Part shown: positions 23,824 to 43,020 of the stretch, piece after piece
Numbering within the stretch: position 1 is the first letter of the stretch
Layout of the letters: each line of letters starts with the position of its first letter
DNA from: Theocolax elegans
Lineage: Eukaryota; Arthropoda; Insecta; Hymenoptera; Cerocephalidae
Direction: 5' to 3'
Length of the DNA: 64,000 nucleotides
Assembly (NCBI GenBank): GCA_026168455.1
Contig: CM047427.1
Location: 86,892,670-86,956,669 of the forward strand
Position numbers and translations under genes: made by a program
Notes under the pieces: model-generated
Databases searched by the model: none
The model's input: the letters and a program-made list of their open reading frames with translations, nothing else
What the model was told of the DNA's origin: nothing

Positions 23824-24206
23824 TGTTATTATCGTCATCAAAAGTTTGTTAAACGTTAAATTTAATTACGCGATTCCGACAGGGAAATACATTATTGCAC
23901 GGGTAGCTTTAATAATGAAACTTTCATAAAAGAGTGGTAGAAAATAATTGAAAAACAACATGTTAAAAATTAATACTTTCATAGCACTATATGTCATCAA
24001 ACGAGTCATCGATTTTTCAATTTCGTGTAACGTAGACACTTGAAATTAACTAATTATATGTCGTGTACAAATTCATACGTAAAATCTAATTAAAGTGCAT
24101 AGAATCGTTACAAAAATCATATTTCGGATATATTTAAAAAAAATCAATTATTTTTGAAATTCATATTTATTAACATTAACATTAAGTATGACAAACAAAA
24201 AGTTAG

Positions 24207-24255
24207 TATATGAATTTATCGATCTTTACAAGCCAAAGAAATATTCTTAACATCT
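24207..24255 (+). repeat. 49-bp segment duplicated inside the insertion at 25259-25307
   Basis: This is an exact 49-of-49 match, in direct orientation, to 25259-25307. It lies 82 bp left of repeat unit 1. It is either the donor of the sequence in the insertion's hairpin loop or the remnant of a third, decayed array unit. Confidence 0.85.
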
Positions 24256-24337
24256 CAAGTAAGGCGGACTGTATTAATACCAGCCACTTAATAAACCTCA
24301 CAGGATGAGTGTTTGAAAAAAGACTAAGACAAGCTAG

Positions 24338-24837
24338 GTCAACAAAAATATAAAATTTAGTTGTTTGTAGTATGAAATTAATAAAACCTTAATAAGACGG
24401 AAAAAAAAAAAGAAAAAATTATATTTCGCCCTGAGTATGCCTGGTGGGCTCATCAGTAGAGTCCAGGCATCTCGTCTCTAGATATAAATGACAGATATAA
24501 AATTATTTGAAAACCAGCTGTATTCTGACGAGGAAGACATGGGGTATATATGCCCTACCGATAGCAAACTTTAATAAGTGCCACATATTAACAGGTAGCC
24601 CCCTAACGCACTTACATAGAACTAATGTCTTAATCGTCAGACTTTTGTTACATAAGGCATATTCGTGATCCAATGCCATATAATTTTAAAATTTGAATTT
24701 TCCAACTGTCTATATAACATTGTTATCATATTATTTCAAATATATTTTCTTTTTTTCCTTTGGCTTAATAATAAATTTTAATAACAAATATAAGAGGATA
24801 TATATATAATTAATTTATTGTAAAATTAATTTATTTC
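24338..24837 (-). repeat. Hammerhead-bearing tandem repeat, unit 1 (500 bp)
   Basis: First of two adjacent units that start exactly 500 bp apart and share the same left end (GTCAACAAAA) and right end (AATTTATTTC). Over 24338-24707 the two units differ only by single-A length changes in two A-runs, so the duplication is recent, has been homogenised, or is an assembly effect. Outside the ribozyme the unit is AT-rich and has no open frame of useful length. The strand given is that of the ribozyme. Monomer size and ribozyme content resemble the pDo500 satellite of Dolichopoda cave crickets and other hammerhead satellites and retrozymes. I see organisational similarity only and cannot claim sequence homology. 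Confidence 0.9.
24419..24487 (-). ncRNA. Hammerhead self-cleaving ribozyme, type III, copy 1
   Basis: Read on the minus strand, every conserved hammerhead part is present in order. Stem III is formed by 24482-24487 with 24419-24424 (UUAUAU with AUAUAA, 6 bp). The cleavage nucleotide C17 is at 24481, preceded by U16.1. Stem I is 24476-24480 with 24457-24461 (UAGAG with CUCUA, 5 bp), closed by a 14-nt loop. The core CUGAUGA is at 24450-24456. Stem II is 24446-24449 with 24428-24431 (GCCC with GGGC, 4 bp), also with a 14-nt loop. GAA is at 24425-24427 and A15.1 pairs with U16.1. The two loops contain AUGCCUGG and CCAGGCAU, complementary over 8 nt, which could form the loop-loop contact that natural hammerheads need at cellular magnesium. 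Predicted cleavage is between 24481 and 24480. Stem III is the open helix, so the type is III, as in viroid-like RNAs. Activity is inferred, but the core match is complete. Confidence 0.93.
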
Positions 24838-24917
24838 GTCAACAAAAATATAAAATTTAGTTGTTTGTAGTATGAAATTAATAAAACCTTAATAAGACGG
24901 AAAAAAAAAAGAAAAAA

Positions 24918-24986
24918 TTATATTTCGCCCTGAGTATGCCTGGTGGGCTCATCAGTAGAGTCCAGGCATCTCGTCTCTAGATATAA
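24918..24986 (-). ncRNA. Hammerhead self-cleaving ribozyme, type III, copy 2
   Basis: This is identical over all 69 nt to the ribozyme 499 bp to its left. On the minus strand stem III is 24981-24986 with 24918-24923, C17 is at 24980, stem I is 24975-24979 with 24956-24960, the CUGAUGA core is at 24949-24955, stem II is 24945-24948 with 24927-24930, and GAA is at 24924-24926. Predicted cleavage is between 24980 and 24979. In a minus-strand transcript this copy is upstream, so cleavage here and at copy 1 would free a 499-nt RNA (24979 down to 24481) with a 5'-hydroxyl and a 2',3'-cyclic phosphate, ends that can be ligated into a circle. Confidence 0.93.
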
Positions 24987-25207
24987 ATGACAGATATAAA
25001 AATTATTTGAAAACCAGCTGTATTCTGACGAGGAAGACATGGGGTATATATGCCCTACCGATAGCAAACTTTAATAAGTGCCACATATTAACAGGTAGCC
25101 CCCTAACGCACTTACATAGAACTAATGTCTTAATCGTCAGACTTTTGTTACATAAGGCATATTCGTGATCCAATGCCATATAATTTTAAAATTTGAATTT
25201 TCCAACT

Positions 25208-25337
25208 ATTAGAAAAATTCGTGAATTTATTGCTTTCTTACACTTTAAGTTTTTAAGATATATGAATTTATCGATCTTTACAAGCCAAAGAAATATTCTT
25301 AACATCTTCATATATCTTAAAACTTAAAGTGTAAGAA
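25208..25337. mobile_element. 130-bp fold-back insertion in repeat unit 2
   Basis: This segment is absent from unit 1. It contains inverted arms at 25235-25264 and 25307-25337, complementary over about 30 nt with one A-run length difference. The region between and overlapping the arms, 25259-25307, is an exact copy of 24207-24255 upstream of the array. It could be a small fold-back element or the product of template switching during replication or repair. I see no target-site duplication that would settle this. Confidence 0.6.
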
Positions 25338-25466
25338 TATATAACAATTGTTATCATATTATTTCAAATTATATTTTCTTTTTTTCCTTTGGCTTAATAA
25401 TAAATTTTAATAACAAATATAAGAGGATATATATATAATTAATTTATTGTAAAATTAATTTATTTC

Positions 25467-26616
25467 TTAATTGCATCAACATATCATGAGCCACAGCAGC
25501 AAACATGTCTATAATATTAAAATCAATGATGGTTAAGTAGAGGAAATTACCTTGAATAACTTTCGAATTTATAGAGAAATATAGAAAACTACGCAACTAT
25601 TAAAATAAACTTTGGTATGAATTTCACAATTATAGATATAGTCCCGTGAGCAAGTGTATAGCGTTCGATTCGCACTCTAGATGCATCGGAGGTACCGTCT
25701 GCAATCGCCAGAAGAATTTCGACAACCGAACGGTTCGGTCAATAAAATTTCTGTCCGACTGCGCGACTTTATACATATTTATGAATATTTTCCCCCGCGT
25801 CTCGCGCTCTATTCCCCCGACGCGTTATTACGGGTTTGGCTGCAACGCTGAATAATTCGGTTGACCGCTATTGACAAACCATATGAGCGAGAAACAGCGA
25901 TATGGCATATTATTCGCTTTTCGCACCCCGCGATACATGCGTAATTCGGTTTATCCACGCGATGCTGTTGATTCGACGTCCGCATTAGCAGGAGATGCAC
26001 CCGTTCTCTTTTTCCTCCCCCCGGATTCTTTTTTTTCCGTGCCACTCGATATATACTTGGATTAAAAGTTCCATATTCTCCAAAATTAGTATTTCATTTT
26101 AATCGATAACATTGTTTCTATCAGTTATTTTTTACGAGATTAATTGATTGACCGATTTAGCAATTAATATTTTGTGTGTCTTCATTTAAATCCGTATATC
26201 TCTCATGTTAACGTTCATAAAAAATTTACAATTAAAACTTGTTACAATGTTTTTATAAAAACTTGTGAATAAATTTATGAAACTGATTACATTATGGTAA
26301 ACCAGGTTTATTGGATATTAATAAGCTGCATTATACTGCAGTAACCAGATTACATTTTATAATTTATTTATTCAACATCTCGTACTAATTTTGGCACGCA
26401 GTGTATATCTGCGCAGGGTATAATATTTAAATGAATTATTTAAATATTTATATGTGTTAAAGAAAAAATCGGTTGCTAATTTAATACATGTAAATAAATG
26501 TTTGCATAATTAAATAAAATTATGGTATTATAAGACAGTTTATCTTAATCTATTTTCATTGATATATCCATATCCGCTTACTGCACAAAAACTTCTGCCA
26601 ATTCATTGGCACGTAG
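25467..26616. other. Right flank of the hammerhead array: CpG-rich patch then AT-rich DNA
   Basis: 25630-26060 is CpG-rich without a credible gene. 26061-26616 is AT-rich and featureless. Confidence 0.45.
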
Positions 26617-27658
26617 CTTCCTCAAAATTAATTTATCATCCCTATGTGTAATACATTATTCGAATATTAAATTTAATTAAGCATAATAAATTTATCCAAC
26701 GGAAGCAAAGATGCTCTGAAAACATTATTGAACGTGTCAGAATTTGAATATCCCAATTTTAAACAATAAAGAAATACTAATCATTTGATTTCAACATCTA
26801 TCTGTTTTCTCTCAAATTAATACATTTTTCAATTATTCCGCAACAAAAACTACAACATTGCATTTAGGTATTGCACAAAATATGTTTCTAAAAAGTTTGA
26901 ATATAGCTACAAATGCTATTATTTTAACGTGTGTTTTAAAAAAATATATAGGTATATTTTAAAAAAAAATTGCATTGTAAATTATAGTTTTTTTCTCAAG
27001 AACCACTTGGTGAAATATTCCGAAATTTTTACAAAATATAGACACTATTATTTTTTATTACAACGTTTTTTTTAACCAATTTGACCGATTAGTTTCAATG
27101 ATATGAGCAATAAAATATTTTGTTAAAAAATATGTGATGCTCAATGACTTCATTAACTACAAATCTTTTAAGCTGAAAAAATGTACAGATTATTGCTACC
27201 ATAAGGACTACTTAATCTCAAAATTTTATGTGGATAAATAGTTTTTTATGACCAATTGCGTTTAAAATAGAAAACTCGAATAGATGGTTTTTATTTTTTT
27301 TAACAAAAAATAGTTCATAGAATTAATTCAAATTTTTGACTAATTATTTCCAGAGTTTTAACAAATGAAAAACTAATAGAGATAATTTGAAAAACTCAAA
27401 TCGAGAACAAAGATATTTTAATTTCTACAAAGTGCTTTTGATCTGTTAAAAAAATACATATTTTTCCCGAATTTGGAAATTAAAAAGAAAACTATGCATG
27501 CCCAACCCGAGCGATTTTGATAAAGTAGTTTAAAAAATGTTACGGCATGTACGTACAAACATAAAAAATAAGTGATTTGAACTCTAAATATAGTTCTAAC
27601 ATGTTTTTAGCACATCGAAAAATTTTATTATTATAACATTTTCTCTACGAAGGAGCAA
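26617..27658 (+). repeat. Dispersed repeat family A, copy 1
   Basis: It shares an ordered series of matches with 37960-38660 in the same orientation: the block TTCCTCAAAATTAAT at the left end, ATGCTCTGAAAA, a block around AACATCTATCTG, TTTAGGTAT, AGAAAACTAT, and ACGAAGGAGCAA at the right end. Divergence is high and many indels separate the blocks. This copy is about 340 bp longer than the other, mostly in its centre. It has no open frame of note and is AT-rich. It is probably an old non-autonomous transposable element. I see no clear terminal repeats or target-site duplications. Confidence 0.65.
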
Positions 27659-36115: not shown

Positions 36116-36340
36116 GGCTGATCGCGAGCACTCACGAAAGTATATCGCTCGCGCGGTTTACACGTTGCATTCTCTTGATAATTGGATCGGAAATCGATCC
36201 TAGACGATTGCGTTATTGCGGCCGTCCCACGAACGACTCACGGTCTTTTTCAATCTCAAAGCCAAACAATCCGCGTGGATCCATCGCGGATCCTTGGGCG
36301 AGCCAAGGAAAGAATCGAGATCAAGTGTAAACTACAGAAA
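36116..36340 (+). repeat. Dispersed GC-rich repeat family B, copy 1
   Basis: About 225 bp, alignable along its length to 42799-43020 with roughly 80% identity by eye. The longest shared blocks are GGTTTACACGTTGCAT and, at 36168-36200, a run containing TTGATAATTGG and GGAAATCGATCC. It is markedly richer in GC and CpG than the DNA around it. It could be a SINE-like element, a fragment of a decayed transposon, or a duplicated regulatory element. I see no poly-A tail or Pol III box pair. Confidence 0.7.
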
Positions 36341-39300
36341 CGCACGTACATGCGCATACCTATATGCAACTTTCAGTTTGACTCACACATTATAGCATAA
36401 TGAAGCCTAAAACTATCTTATTTTCTTATTGTAATAAGATCTTTCAATATTTGCAAGTAATTTTTAAAATAATGTACTTACACTAGACTGCAGGGTTGTA
36501 TTAAAAATTGATATATAAATTTAATTATCGGTTAACAATATAAACTTTCCTTTGTGAAAAATGGCTTATTTTTGAAAAACGTAATAGTATGTTTCCTCAA
36601 GTGAAATTACATGAAATTACTGATAAAAGCTTTGCAGTCTTTGTTCGTTGTATGAAGCAAAGTTTACGTATATTCAGGACTTAAACTGTTAAACCTTTGC
36701 GACCAAAATAGCATTGCGTGCAGCATAGAAATTTCTGTTAAATGATCGCCCCTATTTCTCTGCTTAATTCACATCGCCGGGAGTCTTTATACTCCATATT
36801 TTAAATTAATTGCAATTATTCTGTATATATTTATCTTATAAACCTTTAATAACAACACCATTACGATTACATAATGATTATGGGATTTAAAACGGTGATT
36901 TGCAAAAGCGACTCAAGTTTAAATAATTGTGGAGAAACACATAAAAGAAGAGTTTAGGTTCGACGTGTTTCCAAAAAGTTACAAGCATCATTAAAGTTTC
37001 CAAAGTATTACAGAGAAAAGAGCGACACATCTTTTTCCACGAACTATCGATAGGGTCATTTCAAATGACATAGGTCGGAGCATATATCCAAAGAAATGTG
37101 GGACATACTGAACAACGGATTTTTCATAAACATGCATAAGATTACCGAATTTATCGGATTAACTATAGAAGCGTCTAGACAAATGCGAGTCAAATAAAGA
37201 AAGGTACGAGGTGAAATAATAAAAAGAGTGAACGGAAAAAGGGAAATCGAGAGTCACCGAAGAAAGAGTGTGTAAATAGAATTGTGAAGAGGAGAAAGAG
37301 GTCGCATAGAAATAGGACGCGAAAAAGGAAAACCGAGGAAGAAAGCGAGAACGATAGGGCATACGAAATAGAAGTCGGTATTGGAGGTACTGAGGATTGA
37401 AAGGTGTGGCTTCTAGAGGTCACAGGACTCCGGTACACGAATCAAAACCGACCGATCAAAAATGTGATGAGTTATATGGGAGAAATCGAGAGGAAAAATG
37501 AGGAAGACACGAACATTCTTGTCAATACTTGCGGAAATTAATTGTAATACTAACGCGTATTGAATTCCATAATTTTCCATTTTTTTTAAATTATAACTTA
37601 CAGTAATAATAATGTCGAATAGCAAAACCGGGAGATACATTATAAATTACTTTAGCTAATATATAAACAAATAATGTCATTTGTAATTATACATATTTCA
37701 AATAAATCTAATACTCCACTGTAAAATAATAAAATTATTAAATTAACCCTCTTAAATACTGTGGCTTCTTAACATGAAACTATACTTGTTTCTTGAAACT
37801 TAAATGGAACAAAAATGAATAAACTTTAAAAATCAATATCCTGTTTCTAAACGAGCATTAATAAGTATATGCAAAATTAAATTCGTTTTATAAATAATAT
37901 AGTATTTATATTACAATAAATATAACTATATTACGGATACACATATACATATATTATAATTCCTCAAAATTAATGTGTCATATTTATATGTAACACATTA
38001 TTCTAATATGAAAAATAATTAATCCTGTAAACAAAATTATTCAATGTTTTTATAATTGTTTATCTTTGAACTAATTTAATTCGGATGTTTACATAAAAAT
38101 GCTCTGAAAATATGATTAAACATTTCAGATTTTCAGTAACACCAGTATAAAAAATAAAAAATACTAATGATTTGACTTTAACGTCTATCTATTTTCGGCC
38201 AGATTAATGCATTTTTCAAGATTATAATGCACCCAAAAGTACAACATTTAGGTATCGCAAATACCTCAAAACATGTTTTTAAAAAGTTTTAAAAGCTACA
38301 AATTTTTTTATTCTTTACAAAATATATTTGATCCGATTTAAAAATATCATCAGCAACATTCAAAAGTTTCAAAAAATAAATTAAAAAAATTTTTAAATTG
38401 GTTATAAAACTAAAGTTAATCAGTAGATGGAAAATCGAATTTTTTCCCGAATTTGGAAAAGGGAAAGAAAACTATATGCCCAAAGTCAGGAATATCAACG
38501 GAGTAGTTTTAGAAATACAACTTTATACGTACACACGCGCTCACGTGGATATTTTCTAAAAACACGTTTTTAAACTCTAAATATCTCAAAATATACTTGT
38601 AACATGATTTAATAAATCGAAAATGTTTACTATTGCAAAGCTTCCTTTACGAAGGAGCAACCAATTTATTAAATTGCCGTATAAAATAGATTTTATAAAA
38701 GTATATTTTTAGCTTAGATTTTTGATGGGTACTACTCAGTTAAAAAGTAGATCCAAACGCAAAAATCGACAGCGATCTCTCCCGTCTCAACTCTCGGGTA
38801 ATTTTTAACGCAAGCGGCAAACGTCAGCGTTAAAGGGCCAAACGTAAAGAGTACGTCAGTCTGCCGGACAGGTCGTTCGATAGGTCTATGTATTGCACCG
38901 ATTATATAGTCTAACGCTCCCATGTGGTGTACGAGCCCGTAACTGAGCCATGCACACGGCCATTTGCTAACATTTTTTACAAACGTTGACCGATGCAACA
39001 GTCACAGAGATAAACGAGAATAAGATTATTGATGCTTGTTAAATTCTCGTAATAAATTTACTGGAATAATGTTAAATTAACCGATAACTAATACCTATCC
39101 TGTACATAATAATCTGTTATCGATATACCATCGACAATATTAAGTATTTTCAAATATTGTAAAACATAAATATCAAAGGAATTAAACTTTACAGGAAGTC
39201 TTTTACTCCCTGGTTTGTTATAACATTTTATATATAAAAAATTCAAAATTATCGTTTTTCGATGTTTTACATGAATATTTTACCAAGCTGGATACTGAAA

Positions 39301-42798: not shown

Positions 42799-43020
42799 GG
42801 CTATTCGGGGTACTCGTGAAAGTATATCACCGGTGCGGTTTACACGTTGCATCCTCTTGATAATTGGATCGGAAATCGATCCTGGACGATTGCGTTATTG
42901 ATCGCGTATCGCGAAGGACTCACAGTCTTTTCCAATCTTGAAGCCAAACAAAGTCGTGGGTCCGTCGCGGGTCCTCGGGCGATCCAAGGAAAGGATCGAG
43001 ACCAAGAGTAAACAGAAATA
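42799..43020 (+). repeat. Dispersed GC-rich repeat family B, copy 2
   Basis: Partner of 36116-36340 in the same orientation. Both copies carry short open frames in the same register whose translations are alike (PSRILGRAKERIE and PSRVLGRSKERIE). This may be chance preservation in a high-identity block or a trace of former coding sequence. The surrounding 43020-43380 stays fairly GC-rich but no longer matches the first copy. Confidence 0.7.

Follow-up and report, generated by a model that had tools for sequence, protein, structure and literature searches.

Does a tandem repeat in the genome of the hymenopteran Theocolax elegans encode self-cleaving RNA, and, if so, was that repeat copied through a small RNA circle or simply duplicated as DNA? 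The repeat lies within a stretch of 64,000 nucleotides, the whole of which was analysed and is called the window here. A preliminary description had claimed a tandem pair of complete hammerhead ribozymes on the minus strand, each with a full core, a 5-bp stem I, a 4-bp stem II and a 6-bp stem III in type III order. Both motifs are present as claimed, and their layout is as follows.

24918..24986, minus strand: type III hammerhead copy A, identified from the sequence, a motif scan and Rfam RF00008 (24.5 bits, below cut-off)
24986-24981 / 24923-24918, minus strand: stem III of copy A, followed by C17 at 24980
24979-24975 / 24960-24956, minus strand: stem I of copy A
24955-24949, minus strand: CTGATGA of copy A
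24948-24945 / 24930-24927, minus strand: stem II of copy A, followed by GAA at 24926-24924
24419..24487, minus strand: type III hammerhead copy B, letter for letter the same as copy A, with C17 at 24481 (RF00008 22.8 or 24.5 bits, below cut-off)

The copies are 69 nt each and are identical on direct comparison. Read 5' to 3', each begins with TTATAT, C17, TAGAG, a 14-nt loop I, CTCTA and CTGATGA, and continues with GCCC, a 14-nt loop II, GGGC, GAA and ATATAA. Direct pairing gives a stem I of 5 bp (TAGAG / CTCTA), a stem II of 4 bp (GCCC / GGGC) and a stem III of 6 bp (TTATAT / ATATAA). In both copies this pairing leaves stem III open and stems I and II capped by loops; programs that do not allow pseudoknots prefer another fold. 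Both copies contain the full type III core, comprising CUGAUGA, GAA, A15.1-U16.1 and H17, which is C17 here and gives the triplet AUC. The AUC triplet and the GAAAU box agree with the RUH and GAAAY consensus as given in PMC7936874. Cleavage after C17 would produce 5'-OH ends at 24979 and 24480, and these positions, derived here from the sequence, are the ones that had been predicted.

A scan of both strands of the window for the core together with its three helices returned the two copies and no others, and no further degenerate hammerheads appeared in the window when one core mismatch was allowed. As a null, 687 Mb of sequence was simulated from a first-order Markov model with the dinucleotide make-up of the window and scanned on a single strand. 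It contained 3 loose matches, none of which had helices of at least 5, 4 and 6 bp, and the number of loose matches expected by chance is about 0.0006 per 64-kb window, counting both strands. The bare core CTGATGA..GAAA without helices is not significant in itself (2 found against 0.74 expected, with 14 of 100 shuffles reaching 2). It had been argued that a chance match occurring twice is not credible. The simulation makes chance implausible, but the word "twice" does not hold, because copies A and B are one duplicated sequence and not independent events. The argument therefore counts once, and the second copy adds little to it.

The Rfam comparison gave a divided answer to the check with the type III model that had been proposed earlier. 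Hammerhead_3 (RF00008) is the top family at both places when an 801-base stretch is searched (24.5 and 22.8 bits; E 0.01 and 0.032), and a search of the whole window with 4227 families gives 24.5 bits and an E of 0.84 at each copy. The best-matching family is thus the expected one at both copies, but 24.5 bits is under the cut-off, as the gathering score of RF00008 is 48.5 bits and both copies reach about half of that. As a result, a default Rfam scan of the window is empty. The large loops of the motif probably depress its score. Taken together, we regard the type III hammerhead pair as almost certainly real.

Other layouts were also considered. A pattern scan of the window for type I hammerheads found none, and both copies are in type III order. 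Type II was rejected on the grounds that the sole hammerhead family listed by Rfam is type III, a judgement made from the Rfam matches. An HDV-like or viroid-like RNA copied into DNA, which would carry hammerheads of both polarities, was rejected because the motifs occur on the minus strand only when both strands are scanned. Rfam rows below the cut-off included SNORA51, bxd_6, STnc410 and several microRNAs.

The two hammerheads are embedded in a larger repeat, one per unit and 499 nt apart.

24838..25466, minus strand: repeat unit A, 629 bp long with its insertion
24338..24837, minus strand: repeat unit B, 500 bp, directly adjoining unit A head-to-tail
25211..25337, minus strand: 127-nt insertion in unit A, missing in unit B, with a foldback inside
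24481..24979, minus strand: candidate circle, a 499-nt RNA bounded by the two predicted cleavage sites

Aligned with each other, the units agree in 497 columns and differ by 2 mismatches, which border the insertion, by 4 one-base indels and by the single 127-nt insertion. A likeness to retrozymes or insect satellites had been suggested, and the head-to-tail units of ~500 bp with one hammerhead each support it. The predicted 499-nt RNA has 28% GC and does not include the insertion. Folded as a circle, it reaches -100.1 kcal/mol with 62% of its bases paired (z -3.75; none of 60 shuffles folds as stably), and the 430-nt body of the unit without the hammerhead likewise exceeds its shuffles in structure (z -2.93; 0 of 150).

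We think it fairly probable that the dimer is a retrozyme-like element, the transcript of which would free a 499-nt RNA for circularisation. By analogy with known retrozymes, the locus would be transcribed through both units, and the transcript is predicted to cleave itself after C17 in both copies, freeing the 499-nt RNA. A ligase would then close this monomer into a circle, which would likely be reverse-transcribed by the borrowed enzyme of another element. Tandem copies would be inserted, and the tandem arrangement would be the mark of copying from a circle. In this way, small RNA circles would likely help the repeat to spread. The sequence-level basis of this reading consists of the motif, the loop complementarity described below, the dimer, the unit size and the lack of a plus-strand hammerhead. 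It is favoured by the arrangement, AT-rich composition and non-coding nature of the repeat, which are like those of described animal retrozymes, by the abutting head-to-tail units, and by the structure of the unit body and circle beyond that of shuffles.

The outer ends of the dimer bear on the other answer to the opening question, namely that one hammerhead-bearing segment was tandemly duplicated as DNA, in which case the ribozyme would be real and the dimer would not derive from an RNA circle. A search for a target-site duplication at the outer ends, which compared words of at least 5 bases between the two flanks (40 bp of each, extended by 10 bp into the unit), found none. The shared words were TGTTGA (and words within it), which on one side belongs to the unit itself, and CTGTG and CTCAT, both situated 24-34 nt away from the ends. 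Plain DNA duplication would leave just this picture, exactly two complete units with blunt outer borders and no duplicated target site, and this weakens the retrozyme reading. No additional copy is present either, since blastn of 24100-25600 against the 64-kb window returned only the two units, a 49-base repeat and the foldback. On the other hand, head-to-tail hammerhead dimers are the usual form of retrozymes as described in PMC4918200 and PMC7229834, although the dimer form alone cannot separate a retrozyme from a DNA duplication. We consider duplication as DNA a serious alternative, if a somewhat unlikely one. A retrozyme bounded by long terminal repeats (LTRs) was rejected because units A and B abut; there is no distinct middle part and no target duplication at the outer ends.

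A further possibility is that the repeat is decayed and inactive, the fossil of a once-mobile element. Its low RF00008 score and the 127-nt insertion in unit A would fit such a history. However, both hammerheads are intact and identical, the only 2 mismatches between the units fall at the edge of the insertion, and the predicted 499-nt released unit excludes the insertion altogether. A fossil therefore seems distinctly unlikely to us. The foldback within the insertion has arms of 31 and 32 nt that are 97% identical as an inverted repeat, and it looks like a small inverted-repeat element. A segment of 49 nt inside the insertion (25259-25307) recurs at 24207-24255, just beyond unit B, where it is 100% identical and in the same orientation. 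A T-rich run (24898-24917) lies directly 3' of the copy A hammerhead on the minus strand, and presumably could end RNA polymerase III transcription. No tRNA was found in the window.

Within each copy, the two loops contain segments that are complementary to each other.

24936..24969, minus strand: loop-loop match of copy A, AUGCCUGG (24969-24962, loop I) with CCAGGCAU (24943-24936, loop II)
24437..24470, minus strand: loop-loop match of copy B, 24470-24463 with 24444-24437, identical to that of copy A

Loop I and loop II can form 8 Watson-Crick pairs through these segments, a number reached by 86 of 200,000 loop shuffles. Three more pairs, between GAG of loop I and CUC of loop II, could form across a bulged A. 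A tertiary contact between loop I and loop II is predicted from the 8-bp complementarity. Together, the motif scan and the loop shuffles indicate that a chance origin of the motif with its loop match is very unlikely, even over many windows read. According to PMC3088659, contacts between the loops stabilise hammerheads and are predicted in about 40% of them, and disrupting the loop pseudoknot strongly cut cleavage. The same source gives a difference of 2 between stem I and stem II as common in pseudoknotted type III motifs. Stem I is longer than stem II by 1 bp here, which counts against the overall reading.

The strands of the two loops can alternatively pair as one long hairpin, GAGAUGCCUGG / CCAGGCAUACUC, which encloses the core, and this fold is favoured in every pseudoknot-free calculation. 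For the motif alone, three cuts folded without pseudoknots gave z of -2.55, -2.97 and -2.90, with 2, 0 and 1 of 200 shuffles as low. In the pseudoknot-free ensembles, stems I and II have probabilities near 0, and the hairpin reaches 0.85-1.0 in the transcript of the dimer and 0.95-1.0 in the circular form. Stem III has a probability of 0.39-0.88 in the isolated motif and of at most 0.008 in the circle and the dimer transcript. The hammerhead without loop pairing has an energy of -7.1 kcal/mol, against -19.4 for the hairpin fold. As free duplexes, the 8-bp pairing contributes -12.8 kcal/mol and the whole loop pairing -19.0. On these free-duplex values, which do not model kissing geometry, the hammerhead and hairpin states look comparable in energy.

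The preference for the hairpin raises the question of whether GAGAUGCCUGG / CCAGGCAUACUC is itself the conserved object, surrounded by a hammerhead core that arose by coincidence, as its prediction in all of these calculations might suggest. Such a hairpin requires neither the core bases nor the three outer helices, yet all of them are intact, and the strict motif did not occur in 687 Mb of simulated sequence. Moreover, a long loop-loop match always permits a hairpin of this kind as an alternative. We give a fortuitous core very little credence. For the same reason, pseudoknot-free folds do not refute the ribozyme, since any hammerhead with a long loop-loop match would offer the hairpin. The ribozyme reading is nevertheless weakened by an RF00008 score at half the cut-off together with the pseudoknot-free preference for a hairpin that hides the core, and the folding models do not settle ribozyme activity.

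For the retrozyme-like element, the two pairings could act as a switch. During cutting, the loop strands would pair loop-to-loop; once the RNA is a circle, they would form one long hairpin, which would cover the core and prevent the circle from reopening. In plant retrozyme circles, the hammerhead has been described as conformationally blocked (PMC4918200). It is conceivable, but on balance doubtful, that the dimer represents a third kind of retrozyme, one that is animal, hymenopteran, non-LTR and equipped with a pseudoknotted type III hammerhead, in which an 8- to 11-bp pairing would serve both as a clamp and as an off-switch hairpin.

Comparison with known systems shows where the repeat is familiar and where it departs from them. 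Retrozymes are mostly divided, with type III in plants and type I in animals (PMC7229834, PMC7761336). The animal non-LTR retrozymes of coral, mussel, axolotl and others, as described in PMC7229834, share with the present repeat a low GC content, a non-coding nature, an arrangement of short tandem repeats from dimers upward and one hammerhead per unit, with no LTR or plant-type signals seen. In contrast, their hammerheads are of type I, their units measure about 150-450 bp, and their circular RNAs have been demonstrated, whereas the Theocolax elegans dimer has type III hammerheads in units of ~500 bp and a predicted circle. The larger unit weakens the retrozyme reading. The plant LTR retrozymes of PMC4918200 share the type III motif, the dimeric arrangement and a circle with a predicted blocked hammerhead. 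They possess LTRs and a separate middle part, a PBS, a PPT and 4-bp target duplications, with a GC content above 55% and a spacing of ~600-1000 bp, whereas the units here abut and the monomer GC is 28%.

The hammerhead itself has its closest described counterparts among pseudoknotted type III motifs. Those of termite and fly genomes and of the HDV-like RNAs of toad and termite, as reported in PMC7936874, are likewise type III with a first 5-bp part of stem I and a Watson-Crick loop-loop pairing centred on GCC/GGC. Their helices are longer than those here: stem II has 6 bp, and stem I contains an internal loop plus an additional hairpin. The termite genomic motifs are isolated, whereas a tandem dimer is found here. 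A structure-based search for that pseudoknotted form recorded none in hymenopterans (PMC7936874), and it may have been blind to the present motif because of its shorter helices and 14-nt loops. The satellite RNA of cereal yellow dwarf virus RPV, described in the same report (PMC7936874), is also type III with a stable pairing of loop 1 and loop 2. It is a plant virus satellite, whereas the present motif belongs to a genomic repeat. Alternative pairing damps the cleavage of this satellite RNA. In unit size, the repeat resembles the pDo500 satellite of Dolichopoda cave crickets, a ~500-bp repeat (463-505) with one hammerhead per unit (PMC2837043), a likeness by description. pDo500 forms a long satellite family, in contrast to the single dimer here, and PMC4918200 places the hammerheads of crickets among the type I motifs of animals, whereas those here are type III.

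How new is such a repeat? The suggestion that this family may be undescribed stands in part. Among titles and openings of abstracts in the open-licence literature, no report of a type III hammerhead in a hymenopteran, or of one in an animal tandem repeat, was found, and nothing there contradicts the suggestion. However, insect elements with type III hammerheads are mentioned in a 2020 review, which cites previous studies and data still in preparation (PMC7761336), so that the kind is not entirely new. It is unusual for an animal tandem repeat to carry a type III hammerhead; Perreault et al. 2011 considered that repeats possibly need type I in order to propagate (PMC3088659). If the retrozyme reading is true, a type III hammerhead in a mobile animal repeat would breach the divide between plant type III and animal type I, and the pseudoknotted type III motifs of insects would gain a mobile setting. 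It would also bear on the origin of plant retrozymes, for which horizontal acquisition from insects or bacteria has been suggested in the same review (PMC7761336). The finding is surprising in hammerhead type and host, yet lies within the known logic of ribozyme-bearing repeats.

Additional searches describe the sequence around the dimer. Ten of 40 listed reading-frame segments (not the ten highest) had no Pfam match above the cut-off, and the rows below it were HDPD (E 0.063) and Ribosomal_L39 (E 0.086). Exact words of 33 and 24 bases had 0 occurrences in viral contigs and a 27-base word had 0 in prokaryote contigs, collections that would not be expected to contain insect DNA. At 35% GC, the window shows a CpG observed/expected ratio of 1.56, with a range of 1.36-1.68 across 16 of 16 4-kb blocks. 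The corresponding ratios are 1.58 in Lasioglossum albipes and 1.67 in the honey bee, as given in PMC4062844. This comparison, made with bee genomes, suggests that the CpG over-representation of the window is hymenopteran-like.

Other repeats are present in the window away from the dimer. A 140-nt direct repeat (36130-36269 and 42812-42951) is 86% identical and is probably another dispersed repeat. Two more pairs of direct repeats, 26618-26680 / 37960-38022 (83%) and 27451-27495 / 38431-38475 (82%), occur in the same order about 11 kb apart and are possibly parts of one dispersed repeat.
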